From Streptomyces melanogenes (lineage in GTDB: Bacteria; Actinomycetota; Actinomycetes; Streptomycetales; Streptomycetaceae), in NCBI RefSeq assembly GCF_014649795.1, contig NZ_BMTS01000012.1:1-64000 (forward strand): 64,000 nt of DNA, in the 5' to 3' direction. Shown here in pieces: positions 7,955-13,848 of the stretch (the first letter of the stretch is position 1; each line of letters starts with the position of its first letter). The position numbers were made by a program, and so were the translations under genes. Under the pieces are notes generated by a model, which worked only from the letters and a program-made list of their open reading frames with translations, was not told the DNA's origin and made no database searches.

Positions 7955-8842
7955 CTACGACACGATGTCCTTCTTCTCGAAGCCCCGGAACGCCAGCGCC
8001 ATCAGCACCAGCGCGTACCCCACCGACACCCCCGCGCCCTGCGCCATGCCGCTCCACTCCAGATGCGGCTGGAGCGCGTCCGCCCAAGCGAACTGCCAGT
8101 GCGCGGGGAGGGCGTCGCGCCAGTCGCCCAGGGCCGTGATCGCGTCCAGGACGTTGCCCACGATCGTCAGGCCGACAGCGCCGCCGACCGCGCCCAGGGG
8201 TGCGTCCGTCTTGGTGGACAGCCAGAACGCGAGCCCGGCGGTGACCAGTTGGGAGACGAAGACGAACGCCACGGCGATGGCCAGGCGCGGTACCGCCTCC
8301 CCGGCCCCCAGCGAGCCGCCGGTCGGGATCTCCAGCGGGCCCCAGCCGTACGCCGCCGTGCCCACCGCGAGCGCCACCAGCGGCAGCAGCACGATCGCCG
8401 CCGCGCTCAGACCCAGCGCCACCGCCAGCTTGCTCCACAGCAGCCGGGCCCGGGGCACGGGCGCGGCCAGCAGATAGCGCAGCGACGACCAGCTGGCCTC
8501 CGAGGCGACGGTGTCGCCGCAGAACAGGGCGACGGGCACCACCAGCAGGAAGCCCGCCGAGACGAACAGCGCGGTCGCCGCGAAGTTCGCCCCGGACGCG
8601 GTCGCCGTGTCGATCAGGGTGATCCGGCCGTCCCGCCCGGACGGCGTGCCGCCGATGGCGAACGCCGTGACCAGGATGAACGGCAGCGCGGCGAGGATGC
8701 CGCCCATCACCAGGGTGCGGCGCCGCCGCAGCTGGCGCGCCGCCTCCACCCGCAGGGGCAGGGTGCGGCGCGGCCGGTAGCCGGGGGCGGTCGCCCGCAG
8801 GTCCGGCGCGGGCTCGGCCCCGGTGTGCGTCGGCGCACTCAT
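7955..8842 (-). CDS. ABC-2 type transporter permease
   Basis: A 295-residue membrane protein of the ABC-2 permease type. After a basic cytoplasmic N-terminus (AARQLRRRRTL) come about six hydrophobic segments, for example GILAALPFILVTAFAIGG, FVSAGFLLVVPVALFCG, AAAIVLLPLVALAVGTAAYG and VAFVFVSQLVTAGLAFWL. It contains the characteristic SEASWSSLRYLLAAPVPRARLL segment that contacts the ATPase. Its ATG overlaps the stop of the upstream hydrolase-ATPase fusion gene (ATGA), so the two encode one transporter. The substrate is not evident; such two-gene exporters often handle antibiotics or lipids. Confidence 0.88.
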   Translation of the reverse strand: MSAPTHTGAEPAPDLRATAPGYRPRRTLPLRVEAARQLRRRRTLVMGGILAALPFILVTAFAIGGTPSGRDGRITLIDTATASGANFAATALFVSAGFLLVVPVALFCGDTVASEASWSSLRYLLAAPVPRARLLWSKLAVALGLSAAAIVLLPLVALAVGTAAYGWGPLEIPTGGSLGAGEAVPRLAIAVAFVFVSQLVTAGLAFWLSTKTDAPLGAVGGAVGLTIVGNVLDAITALGDWRDALPAHWQFAWADALQPHLEWSGMAQGAGVSVGYALVLMALAFRGFEKKDIVS

Positions 8843-11460
8843 GCCGATCCTCCGATCAGGGTCAGGAACGCGTCCTCCAGGCGGCGGTGCGGGCCGACGC
8901 CCGTCAACGGCACGTCGAGGCGGACCAGTTCGGTGATCAGCTCCGTGGCCGTGGCGCCCTCCAGGCGCACCAGCATGCCCTCGTCGGTGCGGGTCGCCGC
9001 GCCGATGCCGGGCAGCGCGGCCACCTTGTCGGCGAGCACCTCGGTGACCGGTCCCTCGACGGTCACCAGGAGCGTGTCGCTCTCGCCGGTGATCTCGGCG
9101 ACCGGGCCCGCCTGGATCAGCCGGCCCCGGTCCATGACCACCAGGTGCGTGCAGGACTGCTCCACCTCGGAGAGGAGGTGGCTGGAGACGATGACCGTGC
9201 GCCCGCCCTGGGCGTAGCGGATCATCACGTCCCGCATCTCGCGGATCTGCGGCGGGTCCAGGCCATTGGTCGGCTCGTCGAGGATCAGCAGGTCCGGCAG
9301 GCCCAGCATGGCCTGCGCGATGGCCAGGCGCTGGCGCATGCCCTGCGAGTACGTCCGCACCGCGCGCGCGAGCGCGTCGCCCAGGCCCGCGATCTCCAAG
9401 GCCTCGTCCATGTGGGAGTCCTCGGCGGGGCGGCCGGTGGCCTGCCAGTACAGCTCCAGGTTGGCGCGGCCCGACAGGTGCGGCAGGAAGCCCGCGCCCT
9501 CGACGAAGGCGCCGACCCGGGACAGGACGGGCGCGCCCGGCCGGATGGCGTGGCCGAAGACGCGGATCTCGCCGCTGTCGGGGCGGATCAGGCCCATCAG
9601 CATGCGCAGGGTGGTGGTCTTGCCCGCCCCGTTGGGCCCGAGCAGGCCGAGCACCTGGCCCTTCTCGACCCGGAAGGAGAGGTCGCGGACCGCGTACCGG
9701 TCGGTCGACTTGGCGTACTTCTTGGTCAGGTCGGTGATCTGGAGCGGGACTTCGGCCAGCTCCGGGTCGGGGGCGGGGGCCGTGGTGCGGCGGGTGACCA
9801 GCAGGCCCAGCGCGATCACCGCTCCCGCCAGCGGCATCCCCCAGGCCCACCAGGGCACCCCGGCGGGCTCGGTCTTCACGCCGGGCGCGGTCGGCACCGC
9901 GAGCGAGCCGTCCACCAGCGAGACCTTGTACGTGCCGGGCTCGGCCGGGGAGGCGTAGCCGAGGTCGGTCGCGGCGACCACCAGGCGCAGCCGGTGGCCC
10001 GCCTCCACGTTGTGGTCGACGGCGGGCAGGGTGACCTCGACCTCCTTGCCCTCCTTGGCGCCGTCCACCCGGACGGGCGCGACCAGTTGGGCGGGGAGGA
10101 CCTGCTGCTTGCCGTCGGGGCCGACGTCGTACACCTTGCCGAAGAGCACCGCGCCGTCGCCGCTGGAGGTGACCTTCAGCCGGACCTTGGGCGAGCCGGT
10201 GATGCGCAGGCCGGGCTTCAGCGGCGCGGAGTCGAAGCGCGCGTACTGCCCGGGGAAGTCGATGGACAGGCCGCCCACGCCGAGCGAGGACAGGCCCGCG
10301 AGGCCGCCGCCGACGCCGGGCACGGCGGAGATGGCGGGCGGGGCGGCGCCCGCCGGGTTCTCGAAGGTCTGCTCGCGGCCGGTGAGCCCGATCGCGCGCG
10401 TGCCGTCCGCCAGGCCCGGGTAGCTGCCGCTGGTGGCGCCGCGCAGTTGGGCGGCGCCGTCGGTGGAGCTGATGCCGCCGGTCCTGGTGACGCGGAAGGC
10501 GGGTCCGGTGGAGGCGCCCTCGTCGCCCTTCAGGTAGTGGTCGAACCAGGAGGCGATCCGGGCGTTGATCCGCCCCGACTCGCGGTCGCCGCCGTCGTGG
10601 CCTCCGGTGATCCAGTCGACCGCGACCGGGGCGCCGTTGGCGCGGATCCGCCGGGCCATGGCGTCGGCCTGGCCGAGCGGGAAGAGGGAGTCGCTCTGGC
10701 CCTGGACGATCAGCGCGGGCACCTTGATGCGGTCGCCCACGGCGGACGGGGAGCGGGCCGCGAGCAGGTCGCGCGCCTCGGCGTCCGGCTTCCCACTGAC
10801 CGCGACCCTCTCGTACATGTCGCAGAGCTGCTTCTCGAAGGTCCTGCAGCCGCCGCCGGTGGAGAAGAAGATCCCGGCCCAGAGCTTCTTGAACACCCCG
10901 TCGGGGAAGAGCGCGTCCGCCAGGTTCCAGTAGGTGATCTGCGGCGCGATCGCGTCGATCCGCTTGTCGTACCCGGCGGCCAGGAGCGAGATCGCGCCCC
11001 CGTACGACGCGCCGGTGACGCCCACGCGCGGGTCGCCCGCCGCGTCGAGCTTCACCTCGGGGCGCTTGGCCAGCCAGTCGACGAGCCGCGAGACGTCCTT
11101 CACCTCGAACGCCGGGTCGTTGAGGCCGATCTCGCCCGTGGAGTCGCCGAAGCCGCGCGCCGACCAGGTCAGCACCGCGAAGCCCTCGCGCGCGAGGCTC
11201 CGCGCCTGGCCGCGGACGTCGTCCTTGCTGCCGCCGAAGCCGTGGCCGAGGAGGACGGCGGGGCGCTTCTTCTTCGCGTCGCCCGCCGTGAAGTACGACG
11301 TGTCGATCTTCGCCCCGGGCATCTCCATCACCCGGTCCTCCTGGTGCACCGCGGGCGTGCCGCCGGCGCCGGAGGCCGTCCAGATGCCGGCGCCGGCGAG
11401 CACCGCGAGGGCGGCGGCCACCGCGGCCGCCGCCCTCCCACGAGGTCTGCGCAGTCTCAT
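8839..11460 (-). CDS. Fusion: secreted S15/CocE-type hydrolase plus ABC transporter ATPase
   Basis: An 873-residue two-domain protein. Order: signal/TM segment (about 8-30); alpha/beta hydrolase of the X-Pro dipeptidyl-peptidase/acyl-esterase type with LLGHGFGGSKDD, nucleophile elbow GASYGG (about 149-154), acid in GQSDSLFP (about 255) and His in GGHDGGD (about 286); a beta-rich PepX-C-like domain; a second TM helix (about 533-557); and an ABC ATPase with Walker A GPNGAGKTT (about 607), signature YSQGMRQR and Walker B LLILDEPTNGLDP. Predicted topology puts the hydrolase outside and the ATPase inside. ATG 11460 is preceded by GGTGGAG; upstream in-frame codons lack a ribosome site. It is coupled to the permease, so an exporter carries its own extracellular hydrolase. 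Confidence 0.88.
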   Translation of the reverse strand: MRLRRPRGRAAAAVAAALAVLAGAGIWTASGAGGTPAVHQEDRVMEMPGAKIDTSYFTAGDAKKKRPAVLLGHGFGGSKDDVRGQARSLAREGFAVLTWSARGFGDSTGEIGLNDPAFEVKDVSRLVDWLAKRPEVKLDAAGDPRVGVTGASYGGAISLLAAGYDKRIDAIAPQITYWNLADALFPDGVFKKLWAGIFFSTGGGCRTFEKQLCDMYERVAVSGKPDAEARDLLAARSPSAVGDRIKVPALIVQGQSDSLFPLGQADAMARRIRANGAPVAVDWITGGHDGGDRESGRINARIASWFDHYLKGDEGASTGPAFRVTRTGGISSTDGAAQLRGATSGSYPGLADGTRAIGLTGREQTFENPAGAAPPAISAVPGVGGGLAGLSSLGVGGLSIDFPGQYARFDSAPLKPGLRITGSPKVRLKVTSSGDGAVLFGKVYDVGPDGKQQVLPAQLVAPVRVDGAKEGKEVEVTLPAVDHNVEAGHRLRLVVAATDLGYASPAEPGTYKVSLVDGSLAVPTAPGVKTEPAGVPWWAWGMPLAGAVIALGLLVTRRTTAPAPDPELAEVPLQITDLTKKYAKSTDRYAVRDLSFRVEKGQVLGLLGPNGAGKTTTLRMLMGLIRPDSGEIRVFGHAIRPGAPVLSRVGAFVEGAGFLPHLSGRANLELYWQATGRPAEDSHMDEALEIAGLGDALARAVRTYSQGMRQRLAIAQAMLGLPDLLILDEPTNGLDPPQIREMRDVMIRYAQGGRTVIVSSHLLSEVEQSCTHLVVMDRGRLIQAGPVAEITGESDTLLVTVEGPVTEVLADKVAALPGIGAATRTDEGMLVRLEGATATELITELVRLDVPLTGVGPHRRLEDAFLTLIGGSA

Positions 11461-11572: not shown

Positions 11573-12367
11573 TCAGCCGAAGGAGGCCCGCTGGAGCCAG
11601 AAGTCCAGGAGCTCGGCGTCGCCCAGGACCTCGACCCGGGGGCTGTCGGCGGGCAGTCGGCGGTAGAAGACGCCCAGGACGTCGGTGAGCGGGCCACGCA
11701 GCGCCACCGTGGCCTTCTCGTGGCCGCGCCGCCAGCTCACCCCGTCCTCGCCGAGCTCGATCAGCCACTCGGCGCCGGGCGCGTCGGTGGCGTGCAGATG
11801 GATGCTGCGGCCGGGGCCGCGCAGTTCGGCGGCGGCCGGGGCCAGCTTGGCGGCCTGGACGTAGGTGACGATGTCCAGCCACTCGTCGATGGTGTCGGCG
11901 GCCAGCTCCGGCGCGAGCCGGTACTCGGCGCCCACGGTGAGGGCCGCGTCCACACGGTGGACCACCGTCTCGTGGGTCATCCGGCGCGCCCAGAACCCGG
12001 CGGTCGCCTCGCCCGCCCAGGTCCAGGCGGCCTGGTCGGGCCCGGCGTCGCGCAGGGCGTCGGCGCAGAGCGCGGCGCCCTGCGCGAGCCATTCGTCCAG
12101 CGCCTCCGGTTCGTCCTTCTCGGGGCCGGAGGAGTCGAGCACGCGCTCCTGGGGGACGACGGCGGTGGCCTTCGTACGGATGATCTCGGCGACCCAGCGG
12201 TGGGCGCCGCCGACATGCACGGCGAGCTGCCGCAGTGTCCAGTCGGGGCAGGTCGGCACGGTGGCGGAGAGGTCCGCACCGGTCAGGTGCGCCCTCAACT
12301 CGTCGGTCTGTCGCAGGATTTCGCAGCAGTAGAAGTCGTGGTCGAGAGGCGTGTGCGCGGCTGTCAT
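11573..12367 (-). CDS. Maleylpyruvate isomerase family mycothiol-dependent enzyme (DinB-like)
   Basis: A 264-residue protein with the actinobacterial mycothiol-dependent maleylpyruvate isomerase/DinB fold. The N-terminal helix carries LRAHLTGADLSATVPTCPDW, then TLRQLAVHVGGAHRW with its metal-ligand His, then the E/H-containing RRMTHETVVHRVDA helix (His ligands in THETVVHR). The C-terminal half is the SCP2-like WRRGHEKATVALRGPLTDVL domain typical of these proteins. Start ATG 12367. It stands alone between the ABC genes and the APC permease. Family members use mycothiol as cofactor for isomerisation or thiol transfer; the true substrate of this one is unknown. Confidence 0.82.
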   Translation of the reverse strand: MTAAHTPLDHDFYCCEILRQTDELRAHLTGADLSATVPTCPDWTLRQLAVHVGGAHRWVAEIIRTKATAVVPQERVLDSSGPEKDEPEALDEWLAQGAALCADALRDAGPDQAAWTWAGEATAGFWARRMTHETVVHRVDAALTVGAEYRLAPELAADTIDEWLDIVTYVQAAKLAPAAAELRGPGRSIHLHATDAPGAEWLIELGEDGVSWRRGHEKATVALRGPLTDVLGVFYRRLPADSPRVEVLGDAELLDFWLQRASFG

Positions 12368-12450
12368 ACCCCAAACCCTAGGCGGGGCCCGCCCGTTGCG
12401 TCCCGCGGAAGTACCGCCGGATCCGGACAGACCCCGCCATGGGCCGGGCG

Positions 12451-13848
12451 TCAGTTCTGCTCGTCCTCGGGGATGCTCACCAGCCACCGCGTCTCGCGGC
12501 GCGGGCGCAGGTAGAAGGCCCAGTAGAGGGTGGCGACGGCGGTGATGCCGCCGGTCCACAGCAGGTACTGGGTCTCCTGCTGGGTGAGGATGTACGCGAG
12601 GACGGCGATCAGGACCACCGGCACCGCGGGCCACAGCGGCATCCGCCAGGCGGCGGTCTCGCGGTGCGAGCCGCGGCGGCTGAGCAGCGCGGCGACCGCG
12701 ACCAGCAGGTACATCCCGGTGACCGAGACGCCGGTGACGCCGTACAGGGTGTCGAGGTTGACGAAGCAGAGGGCCGCGCCGGGGACGCCGACCAGGAGGG
12801 TGGCGACCCACGGGGAGCCGAATCGGCCCAGTCGGGACAGCCCGCGGTTGACCGGCTCGGGCCAGGCCTTGTCGCGGGCGGAGGCGAACAGGACGCGGGA
12901 GTTCTGGATGACCATCACGATGCCCGCGTTGACGATGGCGAGGGCCACGCAGAGGCTGACGAAGGTGCCGACGGCCGAGTTGGACCAGGCGGTGACCATG
13001 CCGCTGATGTCGCCGGAGGTGAGCGCCGAGAGGTCGGAGGCGCCCAGGGTGATGGCGATGACGGGGACGAGGATGACGGCGGTCGAGATGGCGAGGGTGG
13101 CGAGCACGGTCCGGGCCACGTTGCGGCGCGGGTGCTCCAGCTCCTCGGAGAGGTAGACGGCGGTCGAGAAGCCCTGGGTGATGAAGAGGGCGATGGCGAG
13201 CCCGGAGACGACCATCATCGCGGTGACCGTGGAGTGCGTACCGCCGTCCCCGGCGACCGTGCCGTGGACGAGCGAGGAGGCGCCGCGGTGGCTGTGGGAG
13301 AAGCCGAGGACGGCGACGACGGCCGCGGCGACGACTTCGAGCACCAGGAAGATGCCGGTGATCCAGGCGTTGGCCCGCAGGTCGAGCAGTCCGGCGAGGG
13401 TGGCGAGCAGCATCACGCCGCCGCCGGCGACCGGGGCCGGGATGTGGACGAGCGGGGCAAGGTAGTCGGCGGTGCCCATGGCGATGACCGGAGGGACGAT
13501 CATCACCACGAGCAGCGAGAGGACGAACACCAGCCAGCCCGCGAGCCGTCCGGCTAGCGTCGAGACCATCGCGTACTCGCCGCCCGCGCTGGGGATGAGG
13601 GTGCCCAGCTCCGAGTAGCAGAACGCGACGCCGATACAGAGCAGCGAGCCGATGGCGATGGTCAGCGCGGTGTACGTGCCGAGGCTGGAGAAGAGGTCGG
13701 GCACGACCACGAAGAGGGTCGACGCGGGCGTCACGCAGGAGAGCGTGAGCAGGGTCCCGCCCACGACGCCGATGGAACGCTTGAGCTTCTTGGGGGCCTC
13801 GCCCGTGGCCGGGGAGAGTACGTGGGGCGGGCTGAGCGTTTCGGTCAT
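12451..13848 (-). CDS. APC-superfamily amino acid permease
   Basis: A 465-residue polytopic permease with about 12 hydrophobic segments. KRSIGVVGGTLLTLSCVTPAS opens TM1 as in APC transporters (unwound G-rich helix), FCYSELGTLIPSAGGEYAMV is the family's conserved TM2-TM3 sequence, and the loop FSTAVYLSEELEHPRRNVART matches the TM6-TM7 consensus. A basic YLRPRRETRW tail ends in an acidic SIPEDEQN. It is monocistronic: 83 bases separate it from the downstream isomerase-family gene, and a 440-base gap with the mmsA terminator lies upstream. The substrate is probably an amino acid or polyamine; it cannot be fixed from sequence alone. Confidence 0.87.
   Translation of the reverse strand: MTETLSPPHVLSPATGEAPKKLKRSIGVVGGTLLTLSCVTPASTLFVVVPDLFSSLGTYTALTIAIGSLLCIGVAFCYSELGTLIPSAGGEYAMVSTLAGRLAGWLVFVLSLLVVMIVPPVIAMGTADYLAPLVHIPAPVAGGGVMLLATLAGLLDLRANAWITGIFLVLEVVAAAVVAVLGFSHSHRGASSLVHGTVAGDGGTHSTVTAMMVVSGLAIALFITQGFSTAVYLSEELEHPRRNVARTVLATLAISTAVILVPVIAITLGASDLSALTSGDISGMVTAWSNSAVGTFVSLCVALAIVNAGIVMVIQNSRVLFASARDKAWPEPVNRGLSRLGRFGSPWVATLLVGVPGAALCFVNLDTLYGVTGVSVTGMYLLVAVAALLSRRGSHRETAAWRMPLWPAVPVVLIAVLAYILTQQETQYLLWTGGITAVATLYWAFYLRPRRETRWLVSIPEDEQN

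Follow-up and report, generated by a model that had tools for sequence, protein, structure and literature searches.

ATP-binding cassette (ABC) machines partnered by a serine hydrolase on the outer face of the membrane are represented by two described systems, each of which resembles in part the gene reported here. This gene was found in the window, by which we mean the whole 64,000-nucleotide stretch analysed (positions 1 to 64,000 of contig NZ_BMTS01000012.1, RefSeq assembly GCF_014649795.1, Streptomyces melanogenes). It lies at 8839..11460 on the minus strand, as do its parts and the permease gene given below with coordinates, and encodes in one uninterrupted open reading frame of 873 aa a hydrolase, a transmembrane (TM) helix and an ABC ATPase. 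A gene for an ABC-2 permease of 295 aa (7955..8842) is located directly downstream.

In the YbbAP-TesA system of E. coli, an ABC machine likewise has an outward-facing serine esterase as its partner, and it is proposed to pull hydrophobic compounds out of the membrane so that they can be hydrolysed (PMC12646458). TesA is a separate enzyme of the GDSL family that associates with a Type VII permease without a covalent bond, whereas in the present module an alpha/beta hydrolase is covalently attached to the ATPase, and the partner permease belongs to the ABC-2 type. Membership of the YbbAP-TesA group (GDSL hydrolase, FtsX/MacB-type permease) was considered and rejected, given that the hydrolase is S15 and the permease has ABC2_membrane matches only in Pfam.

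The type II prodrug-activating peptidases ZmaM, PamJ and EdeA also consist of an outward serine hydrolase, a TM region and a C-terminal ABC domain presumed to be cytoplasmic (PMC9889268, PMC4234257). The peptidase is however of the PF00144 beta-lactamase superfamily, the known members are encoded in nonribosomal peptide synthetase clusters, and in PamJ the ABC domain shares its chain with nine TM helices (PMC9889268, PMC4234257). By comparison, the fusion has an S15/PepX_C fold, a single helix joining the two halves and its permease as a second gene. PF00144 was absent among its 11 Pfam matches, which places it outside the ZmaM type.

NosF, NosY and NosD are separate proteins with no known hydrolase among them, NosD being the extracytoplasmic partner of NosFY. 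The ATPase and permease of NosFY/NosDFY (PDB 7o0y and others) are among the nearest to those of the module by sequence or fold. The same fusion together with its permease is present in Tsukamurella tyrosinosolvens NZ_LR134452.1 (EL451_RS08105/08110), where the fusion shares 59% identity with the window protein across the aligned positions and is annotated as a single coding sequence (CDS). The names in that record are 'alpha/beta fold hydrolase' and 'ABC transporter permease', which leave out the ATPase half. A full-text literature search, judged by title and abstract opening and not covering subscription papers, found no paper on the fusion among those listed. On the best reading, by analogy, the module would resemble YbbAP-TesA in its logic and the ZmaM-type peptidases in its architecture, with unrelated parts that are joined through the ATPase.

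The architecture itself is observed. For its mechanism we favour, as a serious possibility although one we place slightly short of probable, an ATP-driven ABC-2 machine feeding an amphiphilic ester to a tethered outward-facing esterase. The two genes would form one machine, most probably with the stoichiometry (fusion)2(permease)2. Each fusion chain would cross the membrane so as to leave the S15/PepX_C esterase outside and the ATPase inside, connected by one helix that runs next to the permease. Powered by ATP hydrolysis, the permease would extrude or extract the ester, which might be a lipid, a lysolipid, a lipopeptide or a similar compound; cleavage by the tethered esterase may then follow at the outer face, presuming that delivery is outward.

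Domain organisation and conservation of the gene pair

The start of the fusion at 11460 (MRLRRPRG) aligns with the starts of homologues, for example MKLRKPRG. An N-terminal hydrophobic segment preceded by the basic stretch RLRRPRGR (residues ~8-27, 11380..11439) may serve as signal peptide or signal anchor. It is followed by a Peptidase_S15 alpha/beta hydrolase domain with an HGFGG motif at residues 73-77 (residues 63-264, 10669..11274; PF02129, 70.5 bits against a curated cut-off of 23) and by a PepX_C domain (residues 405-509, 9934..10248; PF08530, 53.7 bits, cut-off 22.5). The second TM helix (TM2; residues ~537-555, 9796..9852), after which arginines occur, leads to the ABC ATPase (residues 573-794, 9079..9744; ABC_tran at 592-732, 108.3 bits, cut-off 25) and a C-terminal extension of ~78 aa (residues 796-873, 8842..9075). 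Hydropathy exceeded 1.5 in 19-residue windows only at residues 8-32 and 537-556. All three Pfam domains, S15, PepX_C and ABC_tran, were recognised in each of the six divergent fusions scanned. By its S15 and PepX_C scores the hydrolase half belongs with the CocE/NonD-like enzymes.

The predicted catalytic triad of the hydrolase half is complete and invariant, being formed by the nucleophile Ser152 in GASYGG (11005..11007), the acid Asp257 (10690..10692) and the base His288 (10597..10599), each identical in 100/100 aligned Streptomyces-group sequences (100 rows including the window, 99 of them distinct). The same holds in this alignment for Walker A Lys614, the signature YSQGMRQR (704-711), Asp728/Glu729 and His761; judged by these motifs, the second half is an ABC ATPase, in which the Walker A, the signature and the H-loop histidine are all there, as is the Walker B together with its glutamate. 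Cys205 and Cys213 (10822..10848, nine residues), a possible disulfide of the lid region, are each present in 99/100 rows of the Streptomyces-group set and in 35/35 of the window plus divergent set. The triad, both cysteines, Lys614, Ser705, Gly707, Asp728, Glu729 and His761 are moreover identical between the window and all 34 divergent fusions. Length variation among the divergent homologues was observed at two sites: the ATPase tail is shortened to 15-43 residues in 14/34, and a low-complexity insert of variable length (0 to ~100 residues) stands directly before the C...C lid motif.

The permease matched PF12730 (ABC2_membrane_4; 35.9 bits, cut-off 27) and PF12679 (ABC2_membrane_2; 30.8 bits, cut-off 27.2), its only Pfam matches at E <= 0.001. 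Its ATG overlaps the stop codon of the fusion as ATGA, with GGAGG at 8849-8853, six bases before the ATG. An ATGA junction was present in 92/109 Streptomyces-group and 18/34 divergent loci, compared with 12.4% of 2591 long open reading frames in the same loci. GTGA junctions, found in a further 15/109 and 9/34, were counted apart since they are frequent by chance (28.3%); pooled, the two account for 107/109 and 27/34 loci. By BLAST a same-strand permease was found in 107/109 Streptomyces-group loci and is missing only from L023 and L103, where the contig ends; it adjoins the fusion in 34/34 divergent loci. The permease is the only constant neighbour of the fusion found. A promoter and terminator scan returned no promoter-like site and one terminator-like site, the latter within chance. 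The earlier note on this DNA had described a chain of signal or TM segment, S15/CocE-type hydrolase with a triad, second TM helix and full ABC ATPase, coupled to an ABC-2 permease; Pfam, hydropathy and the conserved motifs bear out this chain, and the two permease families over cut-off and the ATGA overlap bear out its partner.

Since both active sites are invariant, lie on one chain and are accompanied by an overlapping permease gene, ATP hydrolysis and surface hydrolysis probably serve one task. Their placement on opposite sides of the membrane is suggested by charge. TM2 is hydrophobic in all 120 rows of the two alignments (the window sits in both, and the 15 divergent fusions of the second batch are outside the count), and an N-terminal hydrophobic peak was seen in 100/100 Streptomyces-group rows and 19/20 rows of the first divergent alignment. 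Lysine and arginine are more numerous after TM2 than before it in 99/100 and 20/20 rows respectively (119/120), and by the positive-inside rule such an excess marks the cytoplasmic side. The ATPase is therefore predicted to be cytoplasmic and the hydrolase extracytoplasmic, and the two invariant cysteines are consistent with an oxidising exterior.

Distribution and origin of the fusion

The earlier note named as its refutation a sequencing error that fuses two genes, through a missed stop near 9850; TM2 is located there. The frame is unbroken across the TM2 junction in 109/109 Streptomyces-group loci (L009-L117, including that of the window), 107 of which are distinct over the last 780 residues, and it is open in 34 divergent homologues, whose identity with the window protein across the aligned positions ranges from 38-60%. 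Two same-genus loci encode proteins identical to those of named Streptomyces loci (L015 to L041 and L117 to L102). The divergent fusions come from other actinobacterial families, orders and classes, and include a Tsukamurella plasmid (L137) and Nonomuraea (L138). These sequences, with the single-CDS annotation in Tsukamurella, rule out an artefact of this kind, the chance of which we regard as vanishingly small, and they provide the occurrence in actinobacteria for which the note had proposed a search.

Loci were obtained by match to the hydrolase half or to the whole protein. Of 463 relatives the best 80 make up the named loci; 79 of them have Streptomyces in their title, and the remaining one is 'Actinobacteria bacterium OV450'. 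The divergent loci were chosen mostly for a long frame, so that the 34 fusions are no measure of prevalence; the first batch (L137-L160) contained the fusion in 19/24, the exceptions being L139, L140, L152, L157 and L158, and the second in 15/15. When 36 relatives of the same genus were searched with the hydrolase part, a frame of at least 873 aa was found in 34, with no match in G031 and a partial one in G008 (505-aa frame). The whole protein was matched at E <= 1e-90 in 74 of 296 genomes of the class, including the window's own. The best open frame was at least 793 aa in 71 of these 74 and shorter in G660 (700), G517 (552) and G688 (531). Among the genomes listed, 26/28 of the same genus had a match (not G228 and G701). 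Across the phylum, 68/396 genomes had a hydrolase match at E <= 1e-30, many in frames too short for the fusion. The module is also retained in three actinomycete genomes of 1.3-1.4 Mb (G467, G497 and G694; L161-L163). Matches were found in 3153 plasmid records, of which 40 were listed and four examined; the one non-actinobacterial record among the latter, from Haloterrigena (L140), encodes a lone hydrolase. The matches in 26/28 same-genus genomes listed and in the three very small genomes point to a general rather than strain-specific role, and a role tied to one antibiotic is disfavoured because the pair is near-universal in the genus and kept in such small genomes.

A maximum-likelihood tree was built from 61 hydrolase domains, 40 labelled fused and 21 free, with a midpoint root for drawing and with L004 and L140 as long branches. 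All fused rows fell into one clade (support 100/96), which includes a single free row, L157. The 'fused' label needs two changes on this tree, and 0% of 200 bootstrap trees need only one, because L157, counted as free, falls inside the fused clade; its frame ends 2 bases from the contig end and probably represents a cut frame rather than a loss. The fused clade and the nearest free group (Streptomyces and related hydrolases) join with support of only 93/78. The simplest history would be one early fusion before the divergence of the sampled actinobacterial classes.

Seven of the eight members of the nearest free group (L176-L181 and L139) showed no homologous ATPase or permease at E <= 1e-10 within 13.5-16.5 kb. 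Having no such ABC genes nearby, the free Streptomyces S15 relatives appear to be paralogues and not a split version, and a Rosetta stone reading of them as split genes was rejected on these 7/7 cases. A cysteine occurs at position 205 in 9/21 and at position 213 in 8/21 free relatives. The cysteine pair was accordingly ruled out as a hallmark of the fusion and is probably older than it. The existence of such relatives indicates that the enzyme can work alone, as it might if the helix merely anchored a surface esterase and pump and esterase were independent. Mere anchoring is nevertheless very improbable in our judgement, the fusions forming one clade with no proven split inside and the motifs of both halves being invariant.

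Structural relatives and candidate substrate

The AlphaFold2 model of the fusion is of moderate confidence (mean predicted local distance difference test, pLDDT, 66.0; predicted TM-score, pTM, 0.49), and that of the permease, with about six long helices, has a mean pLDDT of 66.4 and a pTM of 0.65. The best structural match of the hydrolase model (residues 34-525) was PaL lipase (Z 27.6, 450 aligned, 3.9 A), followed by cocaine esterase CocE (Z 23.6, 444 aligned, 3.4 A), X-prolyl dipeptidyl aminopeptidase (Z 22.3) and alpha-amino acid ester hydrolase (Z 22.2); absence from the fold-match lists carries no weight. PaL was also placed first by Foldseek and by sequence search (E 1.2e-27). PaL (PDB 8yzn/8yzo) and CocE (1ju3 and others) have their overall fold in common with the model but are chains of 505-574 residues without the ABC ATPase that the fusion carries. 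By sequence, the closest relatives of the ATPase are ABCA phospholipid transporters, and NosF comes next. With a hydrolase nearest to a lipase and an esterase and an ATPase nearest to lipid-moving ABCA, an amphiphilic ester is favoured as substrate; the substrate would be an ester rather than a peptide, and the role may be one of envelope housekeeping.

The permease model tied PmtCD, NosY, ABCG, ABCA and KpsM at Z 8.7-11.1, weak values among the 50 matches listed, and its best Foldseek match was NosY (E 0.08). ABCA, ABCG, PmtCD and NosY are grouped as the Type V exporter fold. These relatives bear on a different possibility, in which ATP binding inside would move the outer hydrolase or open its active site without any transport. 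NosFY works on NosD in the Nos system. FtsEX is described as regulating peptidoglycan amidases (PMC12646458). The tethering of ATPase to hydrolase by one helix and the closeness of NosF and NosY, which rank high among the sequence or fold relatives, would agree with such signalling by analogy. The permease is however of the ABC-2 type, with ABCA, ABCG and PmtCD exporters scoring as high as NosY, and a single helix with linkers would presumably make a poor lever; we consider transmission without transport distinctly unlikely.

The best NCBIfam scores of the ATPase were to DrrA (TIGR01188, 178.7 of 312.45 bits) and lantibiotic protection (TIGR03740, 174.2 of 309.75 bits), and membership in either family was rejected as these scores are far under the cut-offs. 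They do, together with the PF12730 match of the permease, lend something to the view that the pair serves self-protection, pumping membrane-active antibiotics or antimicrobial (lipo)peptides out of the cell and in addition hydrolysing them on its surface. The retention of the module in streamlined genomes speaks against such protection, as do its neighbours, where one histidine kinase (L149) and no resistance gene was found among those scanned, and we hold it to be improbable.

Gene neighbourhood and biological role

Neighbouring genes were clustered for the 66 named loci longer than 11 kb (of 80) with a crude gene caller based on third-position GC (GC3), and no constant partner emerged from these 66. 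The caller recovered the permease itself in only 35/66, compared with 107/109 by BLAST, so the clustering counts are lower bounds; an antisense frame seems often to have been called over the permease (clusters 4 and 5). The frequent clusters were a protein that we take from its sequence to be methylmalonate-semialdehyde-dehydrogenase-like (34/66) and, by Pfam, a VWA/YfbK protein (31/66) and the anthrone-oxygenase family (18/66). Ten neighbours at divergent loci comprised two Bax1-I and two CWB2 proteins, an acyl-CoA dehydrogenase, an amidohydrolase, the histidine kinase of L149, a thymidine kinase, a SnoaL protein and one without match. The nine neighbours in L161 were an arginase, a Cu monooxygenase, DUF305, DUF5671, cytochrome b5, a decarboxylase, a small hydrolase, an FAA hydrolase and one without match.

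Some associations recur in a few genomes. A DUF305 gene follows the module in L161 and L162, with a divergent Cu-monooxygenase-like gene before it in L161. A gene of the mycothiol-dependent maleylpyruvate isomerase family is located upstream of the module in the window (11573-12463), where four neighbouring genes were scanned, and near it on the Tsukamurella plasmid (L137, 6759-7415). Two genomes of a single genus carry a glycerol-3-phosphate-dehydrogenase-like gene (glpD) beside the module in divergent orientation; in one of them the module is followed by an enoyl-CoA hydratase and an AMP-binding ligase (ECH/FadD) (L164, 11323-13068; L165, 5596-7332 and 10995-13531). The glpD/ECH/FadD genes are a weak hint at lipid use, too thin to be used here.

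The neighbourhood bears on the suggestion in the earlier note that hydrolysis outside the cell is tied to export, for example of a substrate cleaved on exit. The permease would then export a cytoplasmic peptide or protected metabolite, and the S15 enzyme would remove a leader or protecting group outside. The S15/PepX_C group does include X-Pro dipeptidyl-peptidases, and ZmaM, PamJ and EdeA each combine an outward serine peptidase with TM helices and an ABC domain by fusion (PMC9889268, PMC4234257). No constant biosynthetic or precursor gene was however found in the 66 clustered loci or among 25 divergent-locus neighbours scanned, and the module, being near-universal in the genus and also carried by genomes of 1.3 Mb, does not resemble a typical specialised-metabolite gene. 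Cleavage on exit thus seems rather unlikely to us, being one of several options, while the broader link between outside hydrolysis and export agrees with the topology, as a prediction, and with the ABC-hydrolase precedents.

Several observations weigh against the ATP-driven feeding of an ester to a tethered esterase. The ester preference is a nearest-neighbour guess, because both true peptidases and alpha-amino acid ester hydrolases occur among the relatives in the S15 group. Model confidence is low at residues 256-259 and 287-292, that is, around Asp257 and His288, and the Z range of the permease is one flagged as ambiguous for helical proteins. For YbbAP-TesA, its authors report little evidence for ATP stimulation of the esterase on the substrates tried (PMC12646458). 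No lipid-metabolism gene was constant among the neighbours scanned, and with the permease as the only constant one, genome context gives no substrate. Furthermore, 222 of the 296 class genomes were without a match at E <= 1e-90 (202 of these 222 not being among the genomes listed), which suggests that the module is dispensable in many lineages.

More tentatively still, the pair might be an ancient, actinobacteria-wide envelope machine, an ATP-powered hydrolase of membrane lipids (or lipoconjugates) in which ATP hydrolysis inside and ester hydrolysis outside are covalently coupled, with the enzyme on the motor and not on the channel, and which was left unnamed because annotation records one half. 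Streptomyces, the classic producers of antibiotics, carry the module near-universally, and the fusion seems to go back to a single early event in Actinomycetota. If the ATPase truly powers delivery to the esterase, point mutations in this single protein would open ATP-coupled hydrolysis on the outer side of the membrane to clean genetic analysis.

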